Source: Cornus controversa (Eukaryota > Streptophyta > Magnoliopsida > Cornales > Cornaceae). Taken from it: a DNA stretch of 64,000 bases. This document shows positions 2,228-63,990 of this stretch, piece by piece; position 1 is the first letter of the stretch, and each line of letters starts with the position of its first letter. Made by a program: the position numbers and the translations under genes. The stretch lies in the NCBI GenBank assembly GCA_026545225.1, contig CM048851.1, forward strand, positions 35,859,956 to 35,923,955, in the 5' to 3' direction. The notes below the pieces were generated by a model. It saw nothing but the letters and a program-made list of their open reading frames with translations, made no database searches and was not told the origin of the DNA.

Positions 2228-2302
2228 GCTTTAAAGCCACCACCACCACATTCTCAAATCTCACCTATCAAACACCCACAGACACCAGAAAAAACATAAT
2301 CC

Positions 2303-3952
2303 ATGACCAAAAGCTTGATTCTTTCCTTCCTCCTCCGGCACCTACTATTAATTATAGTAGCCGGACAATGTTGCCTGAATCTGACCCACGCCGCCGGTGG
2401 CCGGTGGAACTTTCTAACCCCCAGCATTGGCATATCAGCCATGCACATGCAACTCCTCTCCAACGACCGAGTTGTCATCTTCGACCGAACCGACTTCGGC
2501 CACTCCAACATCTCACTGCCCAACGGCAAATGCCGAGTCGACCCGAAGGAATTGGCTTTAACTACTGACTGCACAGCCCACTCAGTCGAATACGACGTCG
2601 CAACCAACACTATACGTCCTCTCATGGTCCTCACCGACTTGTGGTGCTCCTCAGGTGCTGTCATGACTGACGGCCGTCTGATACAAACTGGCGGGTTCAA
2701 TGATGGCAGTTATGTGGTGAGGATTTATCGGCCATGCACTGACTGTGATTGGGAGGAAGTCAACTCTGGGTTAGCTCGAAGTAGATGGTATGCCACCAAT
2801 CACATATTGCCGGACGGCCGGCAAATCATCATAGGTGGTCGGCAGCAGTTCAACTACGAGTTTTACCCTAAAACGGCTTCCTCTAAAAAAGCTTATAATT
2901 TACCCTTTTTAGCTCAGACCAGTGACCGAAACATAGAGAACAATCTATACCCATTTGTTTTTCTTAATGTGGATGGAAATTTATTTATTTTGGCTAATAA
3001 TCGAGCTATATTATTCAATTATTTGAAAGGTGTTGTCGTGAGGACGTACCCAGAAATCCCCGGTGGCGATCCTCGGAGTTACCCGAGCACTGGGTCTGCA
3101 GTTCTCCTTCCATTGAAGGACTTACAGGGAGCTGAAATTGAAGCTGAAGTTTTGGTTTGTGGTGGTGCACCGAAGGGATCGTTCACCAGCGCGCGAAGTC
3201 GTAAGTTTGTCGGGGCTTTGAATACGTGTGGCCGAATCAAAATAACCGACCCGGATCCGTGGTGGGTTGTGGAAAAAATGCCTCTGGCTCGGGTCATGGG
3301 TGATATGCTTTTACTACCAAATGGCAACGTATTAATCATTAACGGAGCGGCGGCGGGTACTGCCGGATGGGAACTTGGTAGGGACCCGGTTCTTAATCCC
3401 GTAATTTACCGGCCCAATAACCGAATTGGATCTCGATTTGAGGTACAAAACCCAACCACTATACCTCGTATGTACCACTCTACGGCAATTCTGCTACGTG
3501 ATGGTAGGGTTCTTGTTGGCGGTAGCAATCCTCATGAATTATATAAGTTTACCAGAGTCCTTTTTCCGACGGAATTAAGTTTGGAGGCATTCTCGCCGTC
3601 GTATTTGGATCCAGGGTCCGCAATTTTGCGTCCGAAAATTGTTACACCCATTTCTCAAGCTAAGCTCGGGTATGGGCAGAAGTTGACAATTCGATTCACA
3701 GTCACGGGTGTCCTAAATGGAAATTTGGTCTCTGTTACAATGGTAGCACCATCATTTAACACACACTCATTTTCAATGAATCAAAGATTGTTGGTGCTTG
3801 GCGGAAAAAATGTGATAAAAGTAAGAAAATCTGCTTATGAAGTGACAGTGACGACACCGGGTTCAGGCAATCTTGCACCATCTGGATATTATCTTTTATT
3901 TGTGGTTCATCAAGAAATTCCTAGTAATGGTATATGGATTCATATAGGGTGA
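2303..3952 (+). CDS. GLOX: aldehyde/galactose oxidase-like protein (GLOX), copy 1
   Basis: Intronless gene for a 549-residue secreted copper-radical oxidase of the plant GLOX family. Such enzymes oxidise aldehydes or primary alcohols with O2 and release H2O2, usually in the cell wall or apoplast. Residues 1 to about 30 are a hydrophobic signal peptide ending near THA. A glyoxal-oxidase N-terminal seven-bladed region and a C-terminal DUF1929 immunoglobulin-like domain (about residues 440-547) follow. Catalytic residues known from galactose oxidase can be placed: Cys115 (LWCSSGAV) and Tyr163 (RWYATNH) for the thioether-linked radical, Tyr391 and His392 (PRMYHS) and His488 (NTHSF) for copper. 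The start fits the TATA box 82 bases upstream and the length fits the family. Nothing is broken. Family members are often expressed in anthers or mucilage-secreting cells; that is family knowledge and the sequence does not show it. The substrate cannot be told from sequence. Confidence 0.95.
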   Translation: MTKSLILSFLLRHLLLIIVAGQCCLNLTHAAGGRWNFLTPSIGISAMHMQLLSNDRVVIFDRTDFGHSNISLPNGKCRVDPKELALTTDCTAHSVEYDVATNTIRPLMVLTDLWCSSGAVMTDGRLIQTGGFNDGSYVVRIYRPCTDCDWEEVNSGLARSRWYATNHILPDGRQIIIGGRQQFNYEFYPKTASSKKAYNLPFLAQTSDRNIENNLYPFVFLNVDGNLFILANNRAILFNYLKGVVVRTYPEIPGGDPRSYPSTGSAVLLPLKDLQGAEIEAEVLVCGGAPKGSFTSARSRKFVGALNTCGRIKITDPDPWWVVEKMPLARVMGDMLLLPNGNVLIINGAAAGTAGWELGRDPVLNPVIYRPNNRIGSRFEVQNPTTIPRMYHSTAILLRDGRVLVGGSNPHELYKFTRVLFPTELSLEAFSPSYLDPGSAILRPKIVTPISQAKLGYGQKLTIRFTVTGVLNGNLVSVTMVAPSFNTHSFSMNQRLLVLGGKNVIKVRKSAYEVTVTTPGSGNLAPSGYYLLFVVHQEIPSNGIWIHIG

Positions 3953-6775: not shown

Positions 6776-7104
6776 TCCGACTAGTTCGAAGGAGAGTTTT
6801 GAGAGTGGAATGGTGAATCCGACCACATGATATTATTCGATGGAACCCATCATTTCACTCACACAACACCTATTCAAACTGATCCGTTACTTGTTCGAAG
6901 GAGAGTTTTGTAAGTGGAGTGGTGAATCCGACCAAATGATATTATTCGATAAAACTCATCATTTCACTCACACAACACCTATTCAAACTTATCCTCGACT
7001 AGTTCGAAGGAGAGTTTTGTGAGTAGGGTGGTGAATCCGATCACATGATATTATTCGATGGAACCCATCATTTCACTCACACAACACCTATTCAAACTGA
7101 TCCG
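6776..7104. repeat. three-unit minisatellite, 109-bp period
   Basis: Three tandem units each contain GTTCGAAGGAGAGTTTTG followed by a segment ending in CACAACACCTATTCAAACT. The common core begins at 6784, 6893 and 7002, giving a 109-bp period with a few substitutions. No coding role is evident. Confidence 0.9.
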
Positions 7105-14486: not shown

Positions 14487-14749
14487 GCATATACCCTTCG
14501 TAACACACAACTACCACCGAAAAAAAAACCTGGTAACTTGGTAAGTATACATACATAGGAGTTACTTATTTCGATAAATATATAAATAAAAAAATTTACT
14601 ATATATCTCGAATAAATATTATGTCATACTTCACATAAATTCAAAATATATTTTGAATATTTATTAGAGACACGTATAATTGCTTAAAGAAAAAAAAAAA
14701 AAAAACTGAGTATGAAGTCCTTCCCTCATACTGGAGCACATCTTCTCCT
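14158..14749. other. proximal upstream region of second GLOX gene
   Basis: Resumes the sequence equivalent to 1855-2220 of unit 1, with a TA/GA microsatellite near 14456-14487 and an A-rich tract near 14690-14705. No gene. Confidence 0.55.
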
Positions 14750-14756
14750 TATAAAG
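14750..14756 (+). promoter_or_regulatory. TATA box of second GLOX gene
   Basis: TATAAAG in the same context (TATAAAGGCTCTAAAGCC) as the first copy, 67 bases before the ATG at 14817. Its position shows that the in-frame ATG at 14712 lies upstream of the expected transcription start. Confidence 0.7.
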
Positions 14757-14816
14757 GCTCTAAAGCCCCTACCCCTATCATCACATTCTCAAATCTCACT
14801 CCAAAAGTCAAAATTC

Positions 14817-16463
14817 ATGACTAATAGCTTGTTTCTATCCTTCCTCCTCCGGCACCTACTATTTATAGCAGCCGGACAATGTTGCCTGAACCTGACCCAC
14901 GCCGCCGGTGGCCGGTGGAACCTTCTAAATACCAACATTGGCATATCAGCCATGCACATGCAACTCATCTACAACGACCGAGTTGTCATCTTCGACCGAA
15001 GTGACTTCGGCCCCTCCAACATCTCACTGTCAAACAACAAATGCCGCGTCGACCCGAAGGACATGGCTTTAACCACTGACTGCACGGCCCACTCAGTCGA
15101 ATACGACGTGGCAACCAACACTGTACGTCCCCTCACGATCCTCACCGACGTGTGGTGCTCCTCAGGTGCTGTCATGCCTGACGGCCGTCTGATCCAAACC
15201 GGCGGATTCAATGATGGAGATCATGTGGTCAGAATTTATCGGCCATGCACCGACTGTGATTGGGTGGAAGTCAACTCCGGGTTAATTCAAAGAAGATGGT
15301 ATGCCACCAATCACATATTGCCGGATGGACGGCAAATCATTGTCGGCGGTCGACGGCAGTTCAACTACGAGTTTTACCCAAAAACAGCTTCGTCTATGAA
15401 AGCTTATGATTTACCCTTTTTAGCTCAGACCAATGAGCCAAAGATAGAGAACAACCTATACCCGTTTGTTTTTCTTAATGTTGATGGAAATTTGTTTATT
15501 TTTGCTAATAATCGAGCTATTTTATTCGATTATGTGAACGGTGTTGTCGTGAGAACGTACCCGGAAATCCCCGGCGGCGATCCTCGGAGTTACCCGAGCA
15601 CTGGGTCTTCAGCTCTCCTTCCATTGAAGGACTTAGAGGGACCTGAAATTGAAGCTGAAGTTTTGGTTTGTGGTGGTGCACCGAAAGGTTCGTACAGCAG
15701 CGTGCAAAGTGGTAAGTTTGTCGGTGCTTTGAATACGTGTGGACGAATCAAAATAACCGACCCGGATCCCCAATGGGTTGTAGAGCGAATGCCTCTAGCC
15801 CGGGTCATGGGTGATATGCTTTTACTACCAAACGGCAACGTACTGATCATTAACGGCGCCGCGGGGGGGACTGCCGGATGGGAAAATGGTCGGGACCCGG
15901 TTCTTAAACCAGTAATTTACCGGCCCAATAACCCAATTGAGTCTCGCTTCGAGGTGCAAAACCCGACCACCATACCCCGTATGTACCACTCTGCAGCAAT
16001 TCTGGTGCGTGACGGTAGAATTCTTGTTGGTGGTAGCAATCCTCATGTGTTGTATAACTTCACCCGAGTTCTTTTTCCGACGGAGTTAAGTTTGGAGGCA
16101 TTCTCACCATCATATTTGGATGCAGAGTCTACAACTTTGCGCCCGAGAATTCTTTTGCCCATTTCTCAAATTAAGCTTGGGTATGGGCAAAAGATAACGG
16201 TTCAGTTCACAGTCATGGGTGTGCTAAATGAAAATCTGGTATGGGTTACAATGGTAGCACCATCATTTAACACGCACTCATTTGCGATGAATCAAAGATT
16301 GTTGGTACTTGGTGAAAAGGACGTGATAAAAGTAGAAAAATTCACTTATGAAATGACAGTAATAACACCGGGTTCGAGCAATCTTGCACCATCCGGGTAT
16401 TATCTTCTATTTGTGGTTCATCAAGAAATTCCTAGTGAGGGTATATGGATCCATATAGAGTAA
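14817..16463 (+). CDS. GLOX: aldehyde/galactose oxidase-like protein (GLOX), copy 2
   Basis: Intact 548-residue paralogue of the first GLOX gene, predicted to be a secreted copper-radical oxidase that forms H2O2. The frame is open back to an ATG at 14712, but I chose 14817. The protein from there aligns from its first residue with copy 1, begins with a proper signal peptide, and the 14712 ATG precedes the TATA box. Catalytic residues correspond one position earlier than in copy 1: Cys114, Tyr162, Tyr390-His391 and His487, in the contexts LWCSSGAV-like VWCSSGAV, RWYATNH, PRMYHS and NTHSF. One residue is missing in the signal peptide relative to copy 1. Substitutions are scattered and no stop or frameshift is present, so both copies appear to be under selection. 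The distal promoter has been pushed away by insertions, so expression may differ from copy 1. Confidence 0.93.
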   Translation: MTNSLFLSFLLRHLLFIAAGQCCLNLTHAAGGRWNLLNTNIGISAMHMQLIYNDRVVIFDRSDFGPSNISLSNNKCRVDPKDMALTTDCTAHSVEYDVATNTVRPLTILTDVWCSSGAVMPDGRLIQTGGFNDGDHVVRIYRPCTDCDWVEVNSGLIQRRWYATNHILPDGRQIIVGGRRQFNYEFYPKTASSMKAYDLPFLAQTNEPKIENNLYPFVFLNVDGNLFIFANNRAILFDYVNGVVVRTYPEIPGGDPRSYPSTGSSALLPLKDLEGPEIEAEVLVCGGAPKGSYSSVQSGKFVGALNTCGRIKITDPDPQWVVERMPLARVMGDMLLLPNGNVLIINGAAGGTAGWENGRDPVLKPVIYRPNNPIESRFEVQNPTTIPRMYHSAAILVRDGRILVGGSNPHVLYNFTRVLFPTELSLEAFSPSYLDAESTTLRPRILLPISQIKLGYGQKITVQFTVMGVLNENLVWVTMVAPSFNTHSFAMNQRLLVLGEKDVIKVEKFTYEMTVITPGSSNLAPSGYYLLFVVHQEIPSEGIWIHIE

Positions 16464-40405: not shown

Positions 40406-43029
40406 TGTTAGGTTGGCTCAAATTCCTATTGTGATTAGGTTTCTATTATAGAGTTGTGTCTTATTAAGTAGTTTCTTAGAAGGCAAGTCTTGGTTTTAAG
40501 AAAGGAAAGTACTTGTTTGGCAAGTTTTGGGCTCTAAAGAATTGAAATCCTTGTACACCAAGGAATTGAGTTTTGGGCTCTATAAATAGTTGCCTATGTT
40601 ATAGGTTCAGACAAGTGAGAAGAAAAGATGCAATACTCTCATTCTAAGAAGTATCGACACGGACATGGGACACGGGTACGATATGACACAGACACGGCGA
40701 CACGACGAATTTAAAAAAAAAGGACACGGACACGACGGGGATACGGCTATGAAATAATAATATATTAATATATATTCAACAAGTTAACCAATATTCACAG
40801 TACCATAAATCTAATAATAAATTACACAAATACTTCAATTTATTATCAAGCAATTAATGTATTTGTCAAAAGGAGTGTTTTCATCGTATTCAAAACTCCT
40901 TGAACCTTGCACATTACTCATTTTTGTAATAACAAACAAATAAATTTAAATACAAAATACCAAACAAAATGACATGGCTTTATGTTAAATAAAGTTCTAT
41001 TGGTTTTTTTATTTTTTTGTTTCTAAATTTATTATTTAGAAATTTTATCCAACTATTTTTTATTTTTCAAATATTTTATTTTATAAAATACAATATTTAT
41101 AAAGAAAAAGGGCATAATAGTCATATGAAATGGTATATATGTCATTATAGTTTTTTTAGGGGGGTCAAGATGTCAGCTTTTAGAAAATAAGGGGCTAAAA
41201 TGCTCAAAAAAATAGTTCAAAGGGGTCTTTTTGCAACTTTGGAAAAGTTCAGGGATTTTTTTGCACTTTTAAAAATTACAAAATGTGCCCCGCTATGTCC
41301 CTCGCATGTCCTATCCTTGTCCCTCACGTGTCCTATCCGTGTCCTTGCTGTGTCGAGTTGTGTCCCCTGCGTGTCCAAAAAAAACAAATCCAAGACACTT
41401 CTAAGGAGTGTTCGACACATTTCCGAGTGTCTGACAAGGGTACGACACCCTTATATGAAGTGTCCGTGCTTTCTAGCTCTCATTGTATTTGAGAGGTTAC
41501 TCTCATTGTTTTGAGAAGGCAACTCTTGCGTAGAGGTAATACTCTCATTGTTATTGAGAGGACACTTAGAGAGAATTCTTGTTTAGAATTTGTGATTTCC
41601 TTTTGGGTGTACAAGGGTTGAGTGTTGAAAGTTGAGCGTACTCTTGATACAATCTTTCAACCTGTACTGTTACAATCTATATAGTGAAATCGAACTCTCC
41701 GTGGACGTAGGCTTGTTTAGCCGAACTACGTATAATTCTTGGTGTGTTCTTGTTACTTATCATCACATCGTAATATTTGGTGGTTCGTGATTGGGGGCTT
41801 ATTTCTCAACAAATTGGTATCAGAGCTTCAAGGTGCACACAAGGTGTTTGATAAAAATCTTGTGTAGATTTTTCTTCATAACATGAGAGTTGTTCGTCTT
41901 GGGTACTTGTGACAATCATGGCTGATAATATTGTTACACAATACAAGGTGTAGAGATTTGATGATAAGGGTAACTTCACCCTATGGCAAGGGAGGGTGAA
42001 GGACATCCTAGTTCAACAAGGCTTAGCGCAGGCGTTGAAAAGGAAGGATGGAAAACCGAAAAAAAACACTCTTACTCAACGTGAGTGGTTTTTTTATTCA
42101 CCCAAGTTATGGTGTAATTTAATTTCCTTGAGTCAGTTGGACTCCATGGGCTACAAGTGCTCCATTGCAGGGGGAATCATGAAGATCACCAAGGGTTGCA
42201 TGGTATTAATGCTAGGAGAACAGAGTAGAGGTTTGTATCGTCTGGTGGGGAGTGCTAATGGCACTCAACGAAGCCCCCTTCCAAAGTCACTTGATATAAC
42301 TGCATGAATACATTGGTTGTGTGGATCAAGGGGAGTATTGTTTCATACTTAATTCGGGTTATGTAGCTGGAGCTTGAAAGGCCAATGGATCGTTTGTGGA
42401 TTTGCAGACGGGAGTCTCGTGTATTGAAGACTTGTCAAAAATTTTGCAAAGGGGGAGATTTGTTAGGTTGGCTAAAATTCCTATTGTGATTAGGTTTTTA
42501 TTATAGAGTTGTGTCTCATTAGGTAATTTCTTAGAAGACAAATACTTGTTAGGCAAGTCTTGGGCTCTAAGGAATTGTAATCCTTTCCACCAAGGAATTG
42601 GGTTTTGGGCTCTATAAATAGTTACCTATGTTATCGGTTGAGACAAGTGAGAAGAAAAGAGGCAATACTGTCATTGTATTTAAGATGTTACTCTCATTAT
42701 TTTGAAAGGGCAACTTTTGCGTAGAGGTAATACTCTCATTGTTATAAGACACTTAGAGAAAGAATTCTTGTTTAGAATTTGTGATTTTCTTTTGAGTGAA
42801 ATTAGGTGTACAAGGGTTAAGGATTGAGAGTTGAGCGTGCTCTTGATACAATCTTTCAACTTGTACTGTTACAATCTATATAGTGAAATCGAACTCTCCG
42901 TGGACGTAGGCTTGTTTAGCTGAACCACGTATAATTCTTGATGTGTCCTTGCAAATTTCTTCGTGTTTGTTTACTTATCATCACATTGTAATATTTGGTG
43001 GTTCATGATTAGGAGCTTATTTCTCAACG
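40406..43029 (+). mobile_element. Ty1/copia retrotransposon B, nested in A
   Basis: Both LTRs begin TGTTAGGTTGGCT. The left LTR is 40406-41811, lengthened by the element at 40644-41476. The right LTR is 42461-43029. The target duplication TGTCC is perfect (40401-40405 and 43030-43034), and removing B restores the reading frame of element A's protease. A perfect primer-binding site TGGTATCAGAGC is at 41815-41826 and a polypurine tract AAAGGGGGAGATT at about 42448-42460. Internal coding is reduced to a gag start (near 41919) fused by deletion to a pre-integrase piece (LISLSQLDSMGYKCS), so B is not autonomous. Confidence 0.93.
40644..41476. mobile_element. hAT-like element C, nested in the left LTR of B
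   Basis: An 833-bp insertion bounded by the perfect 8-bp duplication CTCTCATT (40636-40643 and 41477-41484). Ends CTAAGAAGTATCGACACGG and the inverse of GTCCGTGCTTTCTAG are imperfect inverted repeats. Comparison with the uninterrupted right LTR of B confirms the empty site. ACACGGACACG-rich ends. Open frames here are not genes. Confidence 0.9.
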
Positions 43030-44422
43030 TGTCCAAACAAGGACTGGTTTACCTCTTATCGTTCCATTGATGGAGGAGAAGTTCTGATGGGGAATAAGGT
43101 GTCGTGCAAGGTTGTAGGTATCGGTACAATTTGAATCAAGATGTTTGACGATATAGTGAGAATACTGACTGACGTCAGGCATGTTCCAGAAATAAAGAAG
43201 AATTTGATTTTATGGGGTACGCTGGATTCCATCAGGTGCAGTTACAAGGCCGAAAGTGAAGTTGGTAAGGTTTCAAATGGTGCTCTTGTGGTGATGAAGG
43301 GACTGAAGTAACATGGTTTGTATGCGCTGCATGGTAGCACAGTTACAGGTTCAACTGTAGTATCAACTTCGGGTCCAGATTTAGATACTATCAGATTGTG
43401 GCATGTGCGACTTGGGCATATGAGTGAGAGGGGGATGGATGTTCTGAGTAAGCAGGTTTTCTTGGTGGTCAAAAAACTAGGAAATTGGATTTTTGTGATC
43501 ATTTTGTCTTCAGAAAACAGTACAGAGTGAAGTTCAATAACCATTCTGATCTTTGGGGTTAGGTTACTTCACATGGTGGTGGTAGATATATGATGATGTT
43601 AATTGATGATTTTTCTCAAAAAGTTTGAGTTTATATTCTAAAATGCAAGAATGAGGCTTTTGTCATGTTCAAGCAGTGGAAGACCTTGATTGAAGAGCAG
43701 ACTGGAAAACAAGTTAAATGCTTGAGGGCAAACAACGGCTTGGAATTCTGTGAGGGAGAATTTAATGAATTCTGCAAAGCTTACGGGATTGTGAGACACC
43801 GTATAGTGAGGAAAATTCCGCAACAGAATGGAATTGCTGAACAGATGAACATAACGCTATTGGAGAGAGCACGGTGTATGTTGTCTAATGCTGGGTTAGA
43901 CAAAGTGTTTTGGGTTGGCTGTAAGACTCTAGAGGAGGTATGGTCTGGTAACCGATTCAGCTAGAGCTCAGGGTGTCAGTGAGCAGGTGGGGTAATCAAA
44001 GGTTTAGTTAGAGAATGTTCTAGATCGGTCGAATGATAAGCGGGTGCAGTTTGGAGTTGAGGAGGAATATGCACAGTTGTAGGCTTTGTGTGGCTCAAAA
44101 TGGGCCTTATGGCCCTTTTTTGCTCACGTGTTTTGGATCTTGATTAGAACTCTCTTGTAGCCCAGTATATAAGGGCATTTAAGGTCTGGAATTGTTCTGA
44201 ATGAGAAAACACTACAAATCCTAGAAAGATAGTGAGAGAGCGAGAGCTAGGATTTGGGGGGTTGAAACTTGTTATCTCTTGATATTCGTATAGTGAAATC
44301 TTTCGCCGGATCTTTGTCGTGGACGTAAGCTTGCATTAAATTCTTGTGTTTCGTTTTCTGTTGTGTTTCGTTTTCTGCTGTGTTTCATGATTGTTCTTGG
44401 TTCGCGGTTATTTGTCGTAACA

Positions 44423-47364: not shown

Positions 47365-48576
47365 ATGGATGACAGTGGTCATCGTGAAAATGGAAGGCAT
47401 AAACCAACTCAGGGTCAGGTATCTAGAAGCAAGAAATCTCTGCAAATAAATAATTGACTATTGTCCCATTTATTTCTTTATTGTTTAGCTGAAACCAACA
47501 GAACACCTAGATGAATTCTTTGATAGAATAAGCACCTTTTTTTTTTTTTACTAATCTTCGATAGAATAAGCACTTAGCAGTGGGTTTTTTCCCAAACATC
47601 CACTACCGTTCCTTAATTACTTCTATTTCAGTGGTTGATGCAGCATCAGCCATCTATGAAGCAGATAATGGCCATTATGCAAGAAAGAGACGCTGCTATT
47701 CAAGAAAGAAATTTGGCCATCTCCGAAAAGAAGGCAGCTTTGACGGAGCGAGACATGGCTATTTTGCAGCGAGATTCAGCAATTGGAGAACGAAATAATG
47801 CCATTATGGAACGAGACAGTGCCATTGCTACTCTTCAATATCGAGAAAACTCCATGAACAGTGATAATGTGTCCCCTTGCCCACCAGGGTGCCAAATTTC
47901 ACGCGGGGTTAAGCACATGCACCATCCGCAGCAGCATTTCCACCATCAGGCCCACTTGGGTGAAGCTCCATACAGTACAAGAGATGTGCACACGAGTGAT
48001 GCCCTCCAAATGGCTCCAGTTGCTTCAGAGCCTGCAAAGTCCCGACGGACTAAACGCTCAAAGGAGGCCAAAGCAATGACATCTATTAAAAAGGCTTCAA
48101 AATCATCAAAGAAGGTTAAAAGGGAAGGTGAGGACCTGAACAAGATGATGTTTGGAAAGTCGCATTCATGGAAGGGTGGACAGGATGTGGGTGGTGGGGA
48201 CGATGACCTCAACCAACACCTGGGCATGCCGAAGCCTGATTGGAAGAATCAGGACCTGGGGTTAAACCAGGTTGCATTTGATGATTCATCCATGCCAGTG
48301 CCAGTTTGCTCATGTACCGGAACCCTAAGGCCTTGCTATAAATGGGGTAATGGCGGTTGGCAGTCTTCATGTTGCACAACCACCGTGTCTATGTATCCGC
48401 TGCCAGCAGTGCCTAACAAGCGTCATGCCCGAGTTGGTGGTCGGAAAATGAGTGGAAGTGCTTTCAGCAAGCTGCTTAGCCGGCTCGCTGCAGAGGGGCA
48501 CGATCTATCAAATCCAATTGATCTTAAGGACCATTGGGCGAAACACGGTACAAATCGCTACATCACCATCAAATAG
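47365..48576 (+). CDS. BPC6: BASIC PENTACYSTEINE transcription factor (BPC6-like)
   Basis: Two coding exons, 47365-47418 and 47632-48576, with a GT-AG intron give 332 residues. The N-terminus [29 protein letters not shown] is nearly the Arabidopsis BPC6 start, which fixes both the ATG and the intron. Residues about 30-90 form the class II coiled coil with repeated ERD/ERN units, used for dimerisation. A lysine-rich basic stretch lies at about 150-185. The DNA-binding BPC domain fills the last 90 residues, with conserved Cys244, 246, 253, 265 and 266, the [10 protein letters not shown] motif and the terminal [14 protein letters not shown]. Family members are nuclear, bind GA-rich repeats and in Arabidopsis can recruit Polycomb complexes to homeotic and developmental genes. 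The gene looks intact. The leader appears to be very long and transposon-filled. Confidence 0.96.
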
Positions 48577-50100
48577 ATATATGTAAAGAATCTTGAAAAT
48601 GGATGGAGGGAAAATAAAGTCAGAAAACAGCATTCAATGATCAGGGTATGCATGCTCAATTCTCCTTTTGTTATGTGGAAGAAAGAAAATTATTAGTGGT
48701 CACAATGTTACACTTATGAAATAGAATGTCCAGCCAAATTACTTCACTTCTGCAACCCTTTAGATTCTCTATCGATATTGGATCCCCCCTTTCTTTCCAT
48801 CTTCTCGCGGTATAAAATGGGTAAATGATATTGACCCAAGGATGAGGAGGAGCTGTTCATCATTCTCTTGGTTAAAAAGAAGCTAATATGGCGAACTCGA
48901 ACCATCTATCCATGTAACTGGAAATAATTGTAAAGCAGAGTTTGTATTTCAAATGCTTCTGTTGTATTTGTATTTGCATTAACAGTAAATGTTTAAATTA
49001 TCATAGGTGTGGTGTTGCCTTCTTTTCTGTTTTTTAAGAGGTGTTCATCTGTTTAGGGTTTCTTTCTTCAAACACTATGCCCATGTGCTAGACTGGTTAA
49101 TTGTTTATCTATATTAAAGACGGTGACCGAGAGTTGTTTGGATATGTAAAATATCGAATAATTCCATGACCGTGCTTATACAATTTTTGTAAATCTTCGG
49201 TGTGATTTATTAATTATATGACAATTATTTCACTTATACGAGCATTTCAAATACAAACGAGTATAACAAAAATTCATTACAATTACAGCTTAAAATTTCA
49301 GCACAGCCACCTCAACAAGCACTTCTAAGGGAAATCTGATTTTTGAATTTTGATAGTCATAATGTATAACTTGATTATAAAGATTCACTTCAAAGATTAT
49401 AATAAATCTAAAAAGCATTAGGATAGCCCTTCCACAAACCAGGACTGACATCCTCAACTGGGCAAACATAGGGAGTATAGAGATCAAATCAGGGACCAGA
49501 CATCCTCAACTGGTCTAACATTGGGAGATTTAGGAGTACACAGAAATATTCTGTGTGCAGTGTGCATTCAATTATACAATATTTGAATTATGTAACACGT
49601 TATTGAGATTGAGGTTAGAAACAATTTGTACTGAAACTCAAAACACTAAAAACACTAGCAAAACAAAGCCTTTTTTACTCGGAACTATTTGAAAGTAACT
49701 CTTATTCATTTTCAACTCTCTCCAACCAAAAAATATTCTAAAACAATTGAATTACTGAATTGATGGAATCCTTCACATGGTAGTATAATATATGCATATA
49801 AAATGAAAGAAAATTAACCAAACATATAGAAGAAAAGAGACAATCCTATAAATACTAAGATGTCAATTCTTGAAAAACACCAACATAGCCATACAAGAAG
49901 AAGACAGATAAAGAGAGTATTATGTTAATATACTCGTAATAAATTATATTATTTCATGGATACAAAAAAAAAAAGAGTACATATGCTTGGAACAATATCA
50001 CAACAAAATTGTAATTGTACATCATCATCTAAAAAAAAGAAATAAAAAAAAACAAGAAAGAGAACTAAAGACAAAACATAGATACACGATACACCAAACT
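48577..50100. other. 3' UTR of the BPC gene and convergent intergenic region
   Basis: The BPC 3' UTR probably ends near 48960-49010. Near 49440-49525 a phrase (ACATCCTCAACTGG) is repeated. No gene. The snoRNA transcription unit approaches from the right on the other strand. Confidence 0.5.
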
Positions 50101-50194
50101 AAACTAATAGGTCCCTAATCCTAAGCTTCAAAAACCTGATGCTGCCAAATAAGGTTTGAATAAAAATCCATACATCTTCCTAGCCAACACTTTG

Positions 50195-50290
50195 CACCGC
50201 TGCAAATATTCCATGAAGATGCATGGCAACATGCTCAGATTCCTGCAAAAATTCTATGAACATGCATGGCAACATGCTCTGCAAATTTAA
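50195..50290 (-). repeat. tandem duplication near the 3' end of the snoRNA unit
   Basis: Two copies of a ~50-bp segment containing GCATGTTGCCATGCAT on the minus strand, each preceded by an acceptor-like TTTGCAG. It could be a duplicated exon end of a non-coding host transcript. No protein is encoded. Confidence 0.5.
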
Positions 50291-50925
50291 AAAAGAGCGA
50301 CCGGTGACTAATCATCAGTAACAGGTGACTAACAAATAGGAGGAGAATAGAATTCAACATAGCATAGAAGAAATGTGAGAAATTATAATTGCATGTTTTT
50401 TTACTAACTGGCTAAAACCATCCTAGCACGGGGAATTCACCTCAACAAGCACAGAACTGTAATAATGGAAAACACAAAATTTCAGGCTTCCTTTTAATCT
50501 GAACTGTCAACATGGAATGCTCTTAAACTGCTTAACGGAGCATTAGCTTCAAAATTCTCATGTTCTTGCTACTAATTGACTACTTGGATAAAATTTCCCA
50601 GAAAGGAAGAAATTATAGAAGTGTCAATTCTAAAGAGGCATGGAGACAAAAGCATAAGAAGCACTCTCAATTGATGTTAATAGCATTTTATACAAATTTT
50701 ATAAAAAATCACCAAATAAAATTCAAAATCAATCCTAAACCAAGGATCTGCTACCGTCTGTAGCTTAATCAATGTTTCTGCAACAAGTATGATCCAATTC
50801 ATAAGGAACAAGGAAATAGTTAAGCTTACAAAACAAGATAACAGCTAAATATTATGTATCTAGATTATATTATATTATTAAAAAACTAAAAACAAAACCA
50901 TTCAAAAATTCAGCCTGAGGTTACA

Positions 50926-51012
50926 GTGTTTTGTGTCAGATAACAAATATTCAGCACACAACTATCAGACAGGGATAACTGTTAAATATTTGCTCTCATC
51001 ATTCAAAAACAC
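50926..51012 (-). ncRNA. C/D box snoRNA, 25S guide (snR38-like), copy 1
   Basis: Minus strand. Box C AATGATGA (51003-50996), box D' CTGA (50968-50965), box C'-like GTGCTGA (50957-50951) and box D CTGA (50939-50936) lie between a terminal stem GTGTTTT/AAAACAC. Directly before D' is AACAGTTATCCCTGT, complementary to ACAGGGATAACTG, the universally conserved peptidyl-transferase segment of large-subunit rRNA. By the box-plus-five rule it directs 2'-O-methylation of the middle G of GGG. As far as I recall, yeast snR38 modifies this residue (Gm2815). Two similar copies lie nearby. Confidence 0.85.
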
Positions 51013-51305
51013 TGCAAAAAATAAATATCTAAACTATAAATATCATGAACCTAGAGTGAGAATATATATCTCAATCAAAAATATGTAATTCAATCTTTGT
51101 TTATGTGTACTGCAAAAACAAGATATTTAAACTATAAATATCATGAACCTACATGAACCTAGAGTGAGAATATATATCTCAATAAAAAATTTGCAATTCA
51201 ATCTTTGTTTGTGTACTGAAAAAAAAAAAGATATCTAAACTATAACTATCATGAACCTAGGTTGAGAATATACATCTGAATCAAAAAATTGTAATTCAAT
51301 CTTTG

Positions 51306-51392
51306 TTTATATGTCAGATAACAAATCTTCAGCACAGAACTATCAGACAGGGATAACTGTTATATATTTGCTCTCATCATTCAAAAACACTG
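51306..51392 (-). ncRNA. C/D box snoRNA, 25S guide (snR38-like), copy 2
   Basis: Close copy of the gene at 50926. Box C AATGATGA (51381-51374), the same ACAGTTATCCCTGT guide, D' CTGA, C'-like TGCTGA, and D CTGA (51317-51314). The left side of the terminal stem is weaker, with CATATAAAC in place of CACAAAACAC. Confidence 0.78.
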
Positions 51393-51590
51393 CAGAAAAA
51401 TATATCAAAACTATAAATATCATGAACCTAGGATGAGAATATATATCTCAATCAAAAATTTGCAATTCATCTTTTGCTTTATTTTTTCAAATAAAATCAT
51501 TAATCTATTAATACATAACATAATTCATGAATAAACACAACATATGAGTTTCAACCTCAAATATGTCACGGCAGTACAAAGAAATACAAA

Positions 51591-51681
51591 AGCCTCAGAC
51601 CGTCCTAGTTCAAGCATTTCAACACTATAGCAAATATAGAAACTTGCATTTCGGTTTAATTACAAATTGTCATCATAGGCT
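51591..51681 (-). ncRNA. C/D box snoRNA, 18S guide, copy 1
   Basis: Minus strand, 91 nt. Terminal stem AGCC/GGCT, box C TATGATGA (51677-51670), box D CTGA (51598-51595). Immediately before D the sequence GAACTAGGACGGT is complementary over 11 bases to ACCGTCCTAGT of plant 18S rRNA, in the conserved GATACCGTCCTAGTCTC segment. The fifth base from D points at the U of ACCGU. The identity with a named family is not established here. Confidence 0.8.
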
Positions 51682-51856
51682 ATATACTCAGTAATTTGCT
51701 CTGCAGAAAAAGATATCAAAACTATAAATATAATGAACCTAAAGTAAGAATATATATCACAGTCAAAAAATAGTAATTCAATCTTTTGCATTAATTATCA
51801 TTAATCTATGAATACATAACATATAAACACAACATGTGTGTTTAAAGAAATACAAA

Positions 51857-51947
51857 AGCCTCAGACCGTCCTAGTTCAAGAATTTCAACACTACAGCAAA
51901 TATAGAAAATTGCATTTCAGTTGAATTACAAATTGTCATCATAGGCT
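51857..51947 (-). ncRNA. C/D box snoRNA, 18S guide, copy 2
   Basis: Second 91-nt copy with the same stem AGCC/GGCT, box C TATGATGA (51943-51936), box D CTGA (51864-51861) and the same 18S-complementary guide. Substitutions fall mainly in the interior. A CTGA appears here at the possible D' position, where copy 1 has CCGA. Confidence 0.8.
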
Positions 51948-52177
51948 AGATACTCAATCAATTACATGGTATTTCAGAACAAAACCTAAAAACCAAAGAA
52001 AAGGAGGACCACAAATTCATAGTTTACCCGAAAGGGAAAATAAAAAAGCGGTTTTTATTTGCACATTAAGGAAAACAAGTAATACTTCCAAATAAAATAG
52101 ATTTCTCTTATATATCGCAAAATTAAACAGAAATATGACATAAAAATATTTTATATTAAAAATTACGGCTAATTAGC

Positions 52178-52266
52178 AGCTTCAGACTTGAGAGATATCA
52201 GCAGGGAACTGAATAAGTCAGACAGGGATAACTGTACGCATTAAATTTCTCTTCATCCGCGCTATC
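52178..52266 (-). ncRNA. C/D box snoRNA, candidate double guide
   Basis: Minus strand. It contains ACAGTTATCCCTGT followed by D' CTGA (52221-52218), the same 25S guide as the copies at 50926 and 51306. The D box CTGA (52185-52182) is preceded by CTCTCAAGT, complementary to ACTTGAGAG of plant 25S rRNA. Box C is weak (CGGATGA in place of RTGATGA), and the terminal stem is imperfect. Two rRNA matches at the correct distance from D and D' support it. Confidence 0.65.
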
Positions 52267-52404
52267 TATGCCGCAAAAAAAAAACCACAAAATAGACAGA
52301 TATACAAACACTAACGATATATATATATATATATATATAATGCTGTTTATGGAAAAATAACAGTAATGTATGTATGTGTATTCATGTTCAAAAGATAGCA
52401 AAGA

Positions 52405-52500
52405 GAGACATGAGGCATCAGATCTTCCTATTCAAGTGTGACTCATAATACCCAGATCAATGTAGGAGTATTCAACTCGATAAGCTCATCATTTGGTCTC
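52405..52500 (-). ncRNA. possible C/D box snoRNA
   Basis: Box C AATGATGA (52493-52486) and box D CTGA (52421-52418) are bracketed by GAGAC/GTCTC that could pair. The guide before D, AATAGGAAGA, has about nine bases of complementarity to the large-subunit segment TCTTCCTAT, with a mismatch next to the box. Less certain than the others. Confidence 0.4.
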
Positions 52501-52850
52501 TTCAATATTTGTAAAAATAAAAATGAATACTTTCTCAATATCCATTAGGTCATCACAAAAAAAAAAAAACGAATCGGAACAAAAAAATGAAGAAAAATAT
52601 AAACTTGGATTTCTAAAGAACCTTCCGATCCTTTTTCATTCTTATTTCACAATACCAAACGGAAAAGGAAGAAAGTTCATCACTTTCCACGATTTTCCCA
52701 GAAATTAGAGAGAAAACAAGAAAAGAACAGGGCATAGGAAACCATGTTTCAAGATTGGAGGAACAAGATGTATTCGTTTTGCAGATCCAAAACAAACGAA
52801 TTAGGGTTTGTCGGGTGACAAGATGGAACGGCGAAACAAGCTATGGTAAC

Positions 52851-53032
52851 TAGGGTTAGGGTTTCACATTCTTGTGATGTGGAATGAGCATTAATTTATA
52901 GGGTATTTTGTAGACGGTTCCGGGAATCGAAAACAATGGATGGATGATCGGACGGACATGATTATTCATCGCTAGAACATTGATGGGCCCCGCCGAGTTT
53001 TGTGCGTATACACTATTGTGGAGAGTTGGGCC
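52851..53032 (-). promoter_or_regulatory. promoter of the snoRNA transcription unit
   Basis: Read on the minus strand: two site II motifs (GGCCCA, plus-strand TGGGCC at 53027-53032 and 52984-52989), a TATA box TATAAATTAA (52900-52891), then a telo-box AAACCCTAACCCTA (52864-52851), with another AAACCCTAA near 52808. Site II plus telo-box is the usual promoter of plant snoRNA clusters and ribosomal-protein genes. The start of transcription would be near 52865. Confidence 0.75.
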
Positions 53033-54120
53033 AAGCTTCAAGAGCTCATTCAAGCAGGCCTTGGTGTTTACTGTTTAGGCCTACGCAAAGGTAACCAAGC
53101 CAAGAAGTTAGTCGAATTGGGTTTGGTTCTAGAAAAGACACAGTTGTTTTGTTTGGTTGAATACAAGGGATAATAGTTTTGTTTGGTTGAATATAAGGGA
53201 TAATAGAAAAGAAAGATAATGTGACATATTTTGTTTGGTTGGTTGGTGTAAAGAAAATGCAATACTTATATTTTTTTTTTATCAATATACCCTTGTTATA
53301 TAAACTAATACAAAGTGTGGTTTATCAAAGTAATTTTGTAAGCAATTGTAGGGGCATGGTATTTCATATTTATGAAGCAACTTCTTTTTCCTCTCTTTTG
53401 TCCAATTTTTGAAGGATGAAAAATATGGGGTAAGAGAGATGCTCGCTTCCTCCCTCTCTTCCTTTCCTTTCAACCAAACAGTGACAGCTTCTTCTATCAT
53501 TCTCAGTTTTTTCTTCCAACCAAACAAACCACCAGGCATGCATAAATATTGATGCCATAGCTTTTGCTACCAACTCCTCTCACGGTGATGATATATCCGC
53601 AAGCACATTGGCAACCTAAGGTTTGTCTGGTGCAATTCACAACAGTCCACGCCTTTAAAGTAGATCATGCATCGACTTATCACCCAGAAGATGGACTACA
53701 TTGGTTGTTCATTGTGTGATGCCAATGTAGTTTTTTTATTTTCCCGAAATAGGATTTGAATAAGAAATTATTTCGTTATAACAGATTCAATGTTTATTTC
53801 CTTTCCTAAATCAATCCATAAAAGAGATCTAATATGGTGGGATAGTTTTTCTCTCTCTTTTCCTCTTCACAATAAACTCACGCACCCACGTTACCCTTTA
53901 CGAGAAGTTGAATAGTTGACCTTTTACTTTGGAAGACAAGGGTACTATTGGGCTACATCCCTTAGTGTATGGTGAGATAGTCAATTTTCAAAATTCAACT
54001 ATTATTTATGTTAATCGGTAAAAGACTCATATGTAGAATAAATGATATGACCTTAATTTGACTCAACACGAGAGCCAATTACTTTATTATATTTTGTTAT
54101 TGTTTATAAATGATGCTCCA
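53033..54120. other. intergenic with a short tandem repeat
   Basis: Near 53146-53210 the phrase TTTTGTTTGGTTGAATA-AAGGGATAATAG occurs twice in tandem. The inverse CAACCAAACAAA at 53516 suggests an old foldback element between about 53140 and 53530. No gene recognised. Confidence 0.5.
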
Positions 54121-62821: not shown

Positions 62822-63990
62822 TTAGTTATCTTTTGGGGAATCATCAAGTGAAGACTCATCATTCTTAGTCTTCACGCTAGGGTTACCATTAGACATTTCT
62901 ATATCAAAAATATCACCATCATCATCTAAAATTCTTTTGAGAGGTGGGGGTAGTGATTCATTAAATACTACATATATGGATTCGACTACGGTTAGAGTTC
63001 TCTTGTTGAACACTATATAAGTTTTGCTTCTATATGAAAATCCTAGAAATACACCTTCATCGGATTTGACCTCAAATTTTCCTAAGTTATCATTATCATT
63101 TAAGACAAAGCATTTGCATCCAAATACTTTGAAATAGTTAGTGATAGGATTCTTCTCATTCCATATTTCATATGGAGTTTTGGCAAGGATTTTTCTAATA
63201 ATGACTCTATTTATCACATAACAAGAAGTACTAACGACTTCGGCCCATAGGTATCTAGGAAGATTATGCTCATTCAACATTGTTTTAGCCATTTACTAAA
63301 GAGACCTATTTTTCATTTCAACCACATCATTTTGTTGAGGAGTTCTAGGTGCAGAGAGATCGTGATTGTATCCATTTTCATCACAAAAGCTTTTTATATC
63401 TTAATTATCGAATTCTCTACCTCTATCACTTCTAATAGTTTTAATTTTGAAATCCTTCTTATTTTGAACTCTTCTACAAAAATGGAGGGAGTTTCATATT
63501 TTTGAGTTATGAAGAAAATTCAAGTGTATCTAGAGTAGTCATCAACAATTACAAAGGCATAGAGTTTTTCACTAAGGCTAGCAATTCTTTCTAGACCAAA
63601 CAAATCCATGTGAATTAAATCAAGTGGCAAAATAGGTGTGATGTCATTATTTCTTTTAAATGATGATTTGACTTATTTTTCTAATTAGCAAGCACTGCAT
63701 GTCATATATTTCACATACTTAGTTTTTGGGAAGCATTTGACTAAGTCTTTTGAAGACAATTTATAAATAAAATCCATGCTAGCATGTCCTAATCTTATAT
63801 GCCATAGTTAACTACTATCACTAGATGATATAAAATATATTACATCTTGATCATGTAATTCACGTAAAAGCAAGGAATATAAATTTTTATTTCTATTTGC
63901 AGAGAAAAATTGTTTTCCATCAACAATGCATCTATTAGATTTGAATGTAACACTGGATCATAAATCACATAGTTGACTAATGTTAAATAA
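62822..63990 (-). pseudogene. copia pre-integrase and integrase
   Basis: The open frame 63292-62822 holds the integrase C-terminal part (NEHNLPRYLWAEVVSTSCYV, PYEIWNEKNP, FKVFGCKCFVLND, GVFLGFSYRSKTYIVFN) leading to an acidic linker. Upstream to the window edge, broken frames give NLFNISQLCD, LWHIRLGHASMDF, DLIHMDLFG and VIVDDYSRYT. The catalytic DDE core is partly damaged by stops. Confidence 0.85.

Follow-up and report, generated by a model that had tools for sequence, protein, structure and literature searches.

We analysed a 64-kb stretch of Cornus controversa DNA (C7:35,859,956-35,923,955 in a 772-Mb assembly; hereafter the window) that carries, on its minus strand, a cluster of box C/D small nucleolar RNA (snoRNA) genes. 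All Rfam models (4227 families) were searched as covariance models against the whole window, with matches scored against the curated gathering thresholds. Six box C/D snoRNAs reached or exceeded their thresholds, all on the minus strand within 50,929-52,486 and with E-values of 2.2e-11 to 2.6e-4 (64 kb x 4227 families), and no Rfam family matched at gathering level in the window outside the cluster. In the order of transcription they are snoR64a, snoR38, snoR20a, snoR20a, snoR38 and snoR38 (Table 1). The initial annotation, made from the letters of the sequence, had described five minus-strand C/D segments and had proposed a covariance search as a check; the search came out positive, and the segments proved real, although they number six rather than five. 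In a more permissive Rfam search of 50,000-53,600 the sole additions were matches below threshold to Afu_328, a fungal family, located on the three snoR38 copies. Judging from its sequence, the cluster is very probably a working one; its box C/D snoRNAs belong to three known plant families and stand behind a promoter of standard type, an arrangement that is ordinary for plants.

The snoRNA cluster and its promoter

Table 1. Features of the cluster in the window, and of its relative at C7:15.687 Mb (last three rows, positions in segment L049)
Feature	Position	Strand	Rfam family	Score (bits)	Threshold (bits)	Remark
Site II motif GGCCCA (TGGGCC on plus)	53,027-53,032	minus
Site II motif GGCCCA (TGGGCC on plus)	52,984-52,989	minus
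TATA box TATAAA	52,895-52,900	minus
Telo-box AAACCCTAA	52,856-52,864	minus				about at the predicted transcription start
Second telo-box AAACCCTAA	52,801-52,809	minus				in the leader
snoR64a	52,404-52,501	minus	RF01163	52.5	45	Rfam match 52,415-52,486
snoR64a C box ATGATGA	52,492-52,486	minus				at the edge of the Rfam match
snoR64a D box CTGA	52,421-52,418	minus
snoR38 copy c	52,175-52,266	minus	RF00213	45.4	45	guide before D' box intact; strong external stem
snoR20a copy 1	51,858-51,946	minus	RF01193	76.8	42
snoR20a copy 1 C box	51,942-51,936	minus
snoR20a copy 1 D box	51,864-51,861	minus
Spacer repeat	51,016-51,796 (span)	minus				five diverged copies, about 93-108 nt
Spacer copies	51,704-51,796; 51,393-51,485; 51,222-51,314; 51,124-51,216; 51,016-51,108	minus
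snoR20a copy 2	51,592-51,680	minus	RF01193	69.5	42
snoR38 copy 2	51,307-51,388	minus	RF00213	57.0	45
snoR38 copy 2 C box	51,380-51,374	minus
snoR38 copy 3	50,929-51,010	minus	RF00213	61.5	45
L049 unit 1	site II 4243, 4210; TATAAA 4095; telo-box 4062; snoR64a guide and D box 3925	minus
L049 unit 2	site II 3538; TATAAA 3422; telo-box 3389; snoR64a guide and D box 3246	minus
L049 snoR20a	3194-3107	minus	RF01193	43.9	42	after unit 2

A box C/D snoRNA is defined by a C box RUGAUGA and a D box CUGA at either end of an RNA of 60-100 nt; here five of the six copies have an exact C box (ATGATGA), all six have the D box CTGA, and the C-to-D length is 67-82 nt. In snoR20a copy 2 the D' box has changed from CTGA to CCGA while the D guide is unchanged, and this loss suggests that the D guide alone matters there. 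CTGA, TGATGA and single TGGGCY motifs are frequent in AT-rich repeat sequence, and the locus could on that account be read as a collection of chance motif matches. The Rfam search refutes this reading by the E-values of its matches, window-wide, and by the lack of any gathering-level match in the rest of the window; moreover, the three places in the genome with the exact snoR38 guide and D' box all lie within 50,929-52,486. We regard a chance origin of the motifs as vanishingly improbable.

Both site II motifs, the TATA box and both telo-boxes precede the first snoRNA, and transcription would start about 30 nt downstream of the TATA box, near 52,870. The initial annotation had already named the TATA box, a telo-box and two site II motifs as a promoter combination; these are all present, and to them we add the second telo-box and a correction of the layout, in which the telo-boxes lie downstream of the TATA box. 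Its view that such a promoter is known for plant snoRNA polycistrons agrees with what the available portions of PMC3022908 and PMC4660826 report on non-intronic clusters, and the layout recurs at C7:15.687 Mb. Within the accessible text of PMC3022908, telo-boxes occur together with site II or TEF motifs in 34 of 40 non-intronic Arabidopsis snoRNA loci, and in translation-related genes the majority of telo-boxes fall between -50 and +50 relative to the start. The feature by which independent plant snoRNA clusters are recognized, a telo-box with site II motifs near the transcription start, is found here as well, with the start placed by reference to the TATA box.

A grouping that combines one telo-box, two or more site II motifs and TATAAA inside 200 bp, a rule chosen after the locus had been seen, occurs once in the window, and any such grouping appeared in 1 of 200 first-order Markov windows. 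Taken singly, TGGGCY is not specific to the cluster (39 in the window, 27.8 expected), and the telo-box AAACCCTAA occurs eight times in the window where 1.0 is expected (0 of 100 shuffles reach eight), with six of the eight outside the promoter. Just upstream of the promoter, at 53,146-53,206, lie two near-identical 30-nt tandem copies.

Guides and their ribosomal RNA targets

According to the available part of PMC8053127 (Table 1 of that paper), RiboMeth-seq in Arabidopsis assigns two methylated positions of 25S ribosomal RNA (rRNA), G2816 and U2884, to SnoR38Y and SnoR64, respectively, and 18S U1013 to SnoR20.1. In the cluster, the snoR64a guide ATAGGAAGA forms 9 bp (guide positions 2-10) with the 25S site equal to Arabidopsis U2884; the guide of snoR20a copy 1 is ACTAGGACGGT, and that of snoR38 copy 2, before the D' box, is CAGTTATCCCTGT.

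Short rRNA patterns retrieved three places with 18S and two with large-subunit (LSU) rRNA from the plant's own ribosomal DNA (rDNA), their small-subunit or LSU identity being confirmed by Rfam. At all three 18S places the snoR20a guide pairs over 11 bp, with a U opposite guide position 5 (D+5), and at both LSU places the snoR38 guide pairs over 13 bp; the retrieval patterns overlap these two sites, so that the counts 3/3 and 2/2 hold by construction and the independent element is the rRNA identity given by Rfam. The snoR64a site lies outside the pattern, and its guide forms 9 bp at one of the two LSU places (L056). Within L056 a distance of 68 nt separates the two D+5 nucleotides of the LSU, which equals 2884 minus 2816 for U2884 and G2816 of Arabidopsis 25S; this spacing is also found in two of eight foreign eukaryotic rDNA contigs. 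Plant 18S was supplied by the plant's own genome: in viral_contigs a 33-base 18S pattern and a 22-base LSU pattern each gave 0, and a 15-base pattern in public collections returned 19 stretches, none with 18S context.

Guides were also scanned against L008, one partial rDNA contig of the eight, which had been retrieved by a pattern containing the snoR38 site. Matches of 9 bp were found at four distinct CTGA of the 16 on the minus strand, three of them being the identical snoR38 guide, against a mean of 0.43 and a maximum of 3 in 300 random sequences; the plus strand gave none, with just four CTGA there. Covering every CTGA of 50,800-52,900, the scan yielded just the snoR64a and the three snoR38 guides and no extra one, and it missed the snoR20a guide because the 18S of L008 differs at that site, as it would miss other plant-specific sites. 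The eight foreign contigs (L001-L008) belong to bacterial metagenome-assembled genomes and carry eukaryotic LSU rRNA (Rfam), L004 also a group I intron; by virtue of this rRNA they look like eukaryotic contamination of the bacterial bins.

Local duplication and relatives elsewhere in the genome

The two snoR20a copies lie within a duplicated 120-nt segment (93% identical), and snoR38 copies 2 and 3 within a 93-nt pair (94% identical). Such repeats indicate that the cluster grew by local, tandem duplication, which gave snoR38 and snoR20a their additional copies. The spacer copies are 71-89% identical to the reference copy, and two of them (51,222-51,314 and 51,124-51,216) run straight into the next spacer copy with no snoRNA between; a genome search with one copy returned these five places alone. 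As a conserved RNA structure the spacer repeat was rejected for want of support: folding the five copies with RNAalifold gave a consensus of 21 pairs with 0 compensatory changes, and a covariation term of +1.52 that speaks against such a structure. We find it very doubtful that the spacer repeat functions as a module for processing or recombination, with three deeply conserved rRNA guides depending on one locus, snoRNAs amplified in place and the dose of snoR38 and snoR20a tuned.

Searching the genome with the cluster DNA at E <= 0.001 gave 20 matches: the cluster itself, 14 restricted to the surroundings of an AT-rich simple repeat, 52,317-52,339 (query positions 681-754), and five others. 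Three of these five lie at C7:15.687 Mb (L049), where two promoter units, each followed by a snoR64a guide and D box, precede a snoR20a copy. The first snoR64a copy there scores 34.7 bits, below threshold, and neither a C box (RTGATGA) nor a snoR38 guide occurs in L049 2,700-4,400. Since this region repeats the layout and order of the cluster without C boxes, we take the C boxes to have been lost, and the region looks like a decayed partner cluster in which the promoter and snoR64a unit was tandemly duplicated. The remaining matches are a snoR20a-like piece at C8:52.5486 Mb, whose guide has changed and which lacks a C box, and a place on C9 that corresponds to the downstream flank alone and gave nothing in Rfam at E-values up to 0.1.

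The exact snoR20a guide with its D box is found at three places in the genome, two in the cluster and one in L049, and the genome-wide family search placed snoR64a in the cluster and at C7:15.687 Mb, with neither match reaching the cut-off. Family copy counts from this search are lower bounds, as the two window copies were reported for snoR20a although a third exists at C7:15.687 Mb. Further along L049, at 6,864-6,989, a long inverted repeat has sub-threshold matches to several microRNA precursor families on both strands and is probably a small inverted-repeat transposon.

Proposed transcription unit and state of the copies

We consider it highly likely that the locus is a non-coding RNA polymerase II gene whose single precursor contains the six box C/D snoRNAs. 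By analogy with established knowledge of transcription, processing and 2'-O-methylation, one polycistronic precursor would be transcribed from the TATA/telo-box/site II promoter, cut between the snoRNAs and then trimmed. Each snoRNA, together with fibrillarin and partner proteins, would then guide 2'-O-methylation of the nucleotide that pairs with the fifth guide position before D or D'. The predicted targets, in Arabidopsis numbering, are the equivalent of 25S G2816 for snoR38, 25S U2884 for snoR64a and 18S U1013 for snoR20a.

The snoRNAs could instead be intronic, within a protein-coding or spliced non-coding host gene driven by the same promoter. Plant intronic snoRNA clusters are known whose host promoters carry the same motifs (PMC3022908, in the text available), and several spacers end in a T-rich stretch followed by GCAG that resembles a 3' splice site. 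Against this, a Pfam search of 48,600-52,900 in the three minus-strand frames gave no match at E up to 1, within the limits that HMMER filters drop most matches above about 0.1 and that short or domain-free exons would escape. Two minus-strand open reading frames inside the unit (75 and 77 codons) likewise contain no Pfam domain. The nearest coding gene found lies on the opposite strand and points towards the unit: it is a long exon of BASIC PENTACYSTEINE6 (BPC6, GAGA-binding; 47,617-48,576, plus strand), with the best listed matches in Cornus florida (92%) and then Davidia involucrata (87%), which by itself points to a plant probably within Cornales or close to it. As for the putative splice sites before snoR38, the CAG of copy 3 is part of a terminal stem, CAGTGTTTT/AAAACACTG, that extends partly beyond the Rfam match, and the splice-site reading is for this reason dispensable there; it may still hold for copy 2, whose stem is at chance level. 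An intronic origin is, in our assessment, improbable.

Terminal stems were evaluated by comparing the pairing of the flanks with 1000 shuffled flanks and, as a second control, with 1000 random places in the cluster. The stems claimed initially hold in four of six copies, in which at most 19 per 1000 shuffles were as low: 0 for snoR38 copy 3, 1 for snoR38 copy c, 7 for snoR20a copy 1 and 19 for snoR20a copy 2 (random places 0, 2, 17 and 14, respectively). The other two are less clear, and they open a set of observations that weigh against a working, independently transcribed cluster. The possible stem of snoR64a (AGAGAC/GTCTCT) is weak (108 shuffles and 67 random places as low), and that of snoR38 copy 2 does not exceed chance (593 and 428). 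The C box of snoR38 copy c is degenerate (CGGATGA), this copy clears the RF00213 threshold by 0.4 bit, and the window copy of snoR64a drops to 41.6 bits (cut-off 45) in the genome-wide family search, compared with 52.5 in the cmscan of the window. The snoR64a target is missing from the diverged LSU copy L055 and from six of the eight foreign contigs. The telo-box downstream of the TATA box differs from the placement in PMC4660826, the available text of which describes telo-box and site II motifs upstream of the region with the TATA box. A comparison of recent paralogues speaks for the cluster, with differences at 0 of the 57 positions in elements (for snoR20a the inner stem, C, guide and D; for snoR38 C, guide, D' and D) and at 10 of 114 others (Fisher p = 0.03). 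Its sample is small, however, the elements were chosen once the alignment was known, and both the outer stem of snoR38 and the altered D' box in snoR20a copy 2 were placed among the others.

Of the three copies of snoR38, one or two may be weak. Several of these features, namely the degenerate C box and lowest score of snoR38 copy c, the chance-level stem of snoR38 copy 2 and the loss of the D' box in snoR20a copy 2, would also suit decaying pseudogenes of which a subset is expressed, and the C7:15.687 Mb locus without any C box indicates that decay occurs in this lineage. Guides and D boxes, in contrast, are retained in all six copies, and the paralogue differences, few as they are, avoid the listed elements. 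We hold partial decay of the cluster to be unlikely, if worth bearing in mind beside the preferred reading of a single six-snoRNA precursor.

As far as they are described in the available text of PMC3022908 and PMC4660826, the independent polycistronic clusters of Arabidopsis and rice share with this one several same-direction C/D snoRNAs, a single site II/TATA/telo-box promoter and no host coding domain found. The set present here, snoR64a with three snoR38 and two snoR20a copies and repeated spacers, was not met in the descriptions compared. Family by family, snoR38 (RF00213, Arabidopsis SnoR38Y; paired with yeast snR38 in a Neurospora table, PMC2780460) agrees in scoring at or above threshold, in its D' guide and in its 25S target, and differs in having three copies in this one cluster, one of them with the degenerate C box. 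snoR20a (RF01193, Arabidopsis SnoR20.1) agrees in scores far over threshold, D guide and 18S target, and differs in its two tandem copies, the second without a D' box. snoR64a (RF01163, Arabidopsis SnoR64) agrees in a score over threshold in the cmscan of the window, D guide and 25S target, with a 5' half that has diverged from the model.

By its description in the available text of PMC9175010, lncCOBRA1 of Arabidopsis is likewise a non-coding transcript with snoRNAs behind a promoter with a telo-box, two site II motifs and a TATA box, and that text names none of snoR64, snoR38 and snoR20. The three names are also missing from the accessible portions of PMC4660826, PMC5122169, PMC7762058, PMC8351944 and PMC11542601. 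A snoR64-snoR38-snoR20 composition was not found named in the literature on these snoRNAs, Arabidopsis or Cornus, a search that did not extend to key older papers, and we do not claim its absence. What is new here is one more instance, in a Cornus-like plant, in which local duplication can be seen and a partner locus has decayed; the general picture is unchanged. The case also illustrates that a real snoRNA gene cluster can be found by eye from a promoter signature, boxes and guides.

Elsewhere in the window, two plus-strand genes about 12 kb apart (2,300-3,952 and 14,688-16,463) each encode Glyoxal_oxid_N and GO-like_E_set domains. Translations of the plus strand at about 42,000-44,000 resemble, by eye, a broken Copia-type polyprotein, and two open reading frames tested there had no Pfam match. 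On the minus strand, 62,825-63,292 encodes a retrotransposon polymerase SH3-like domain.

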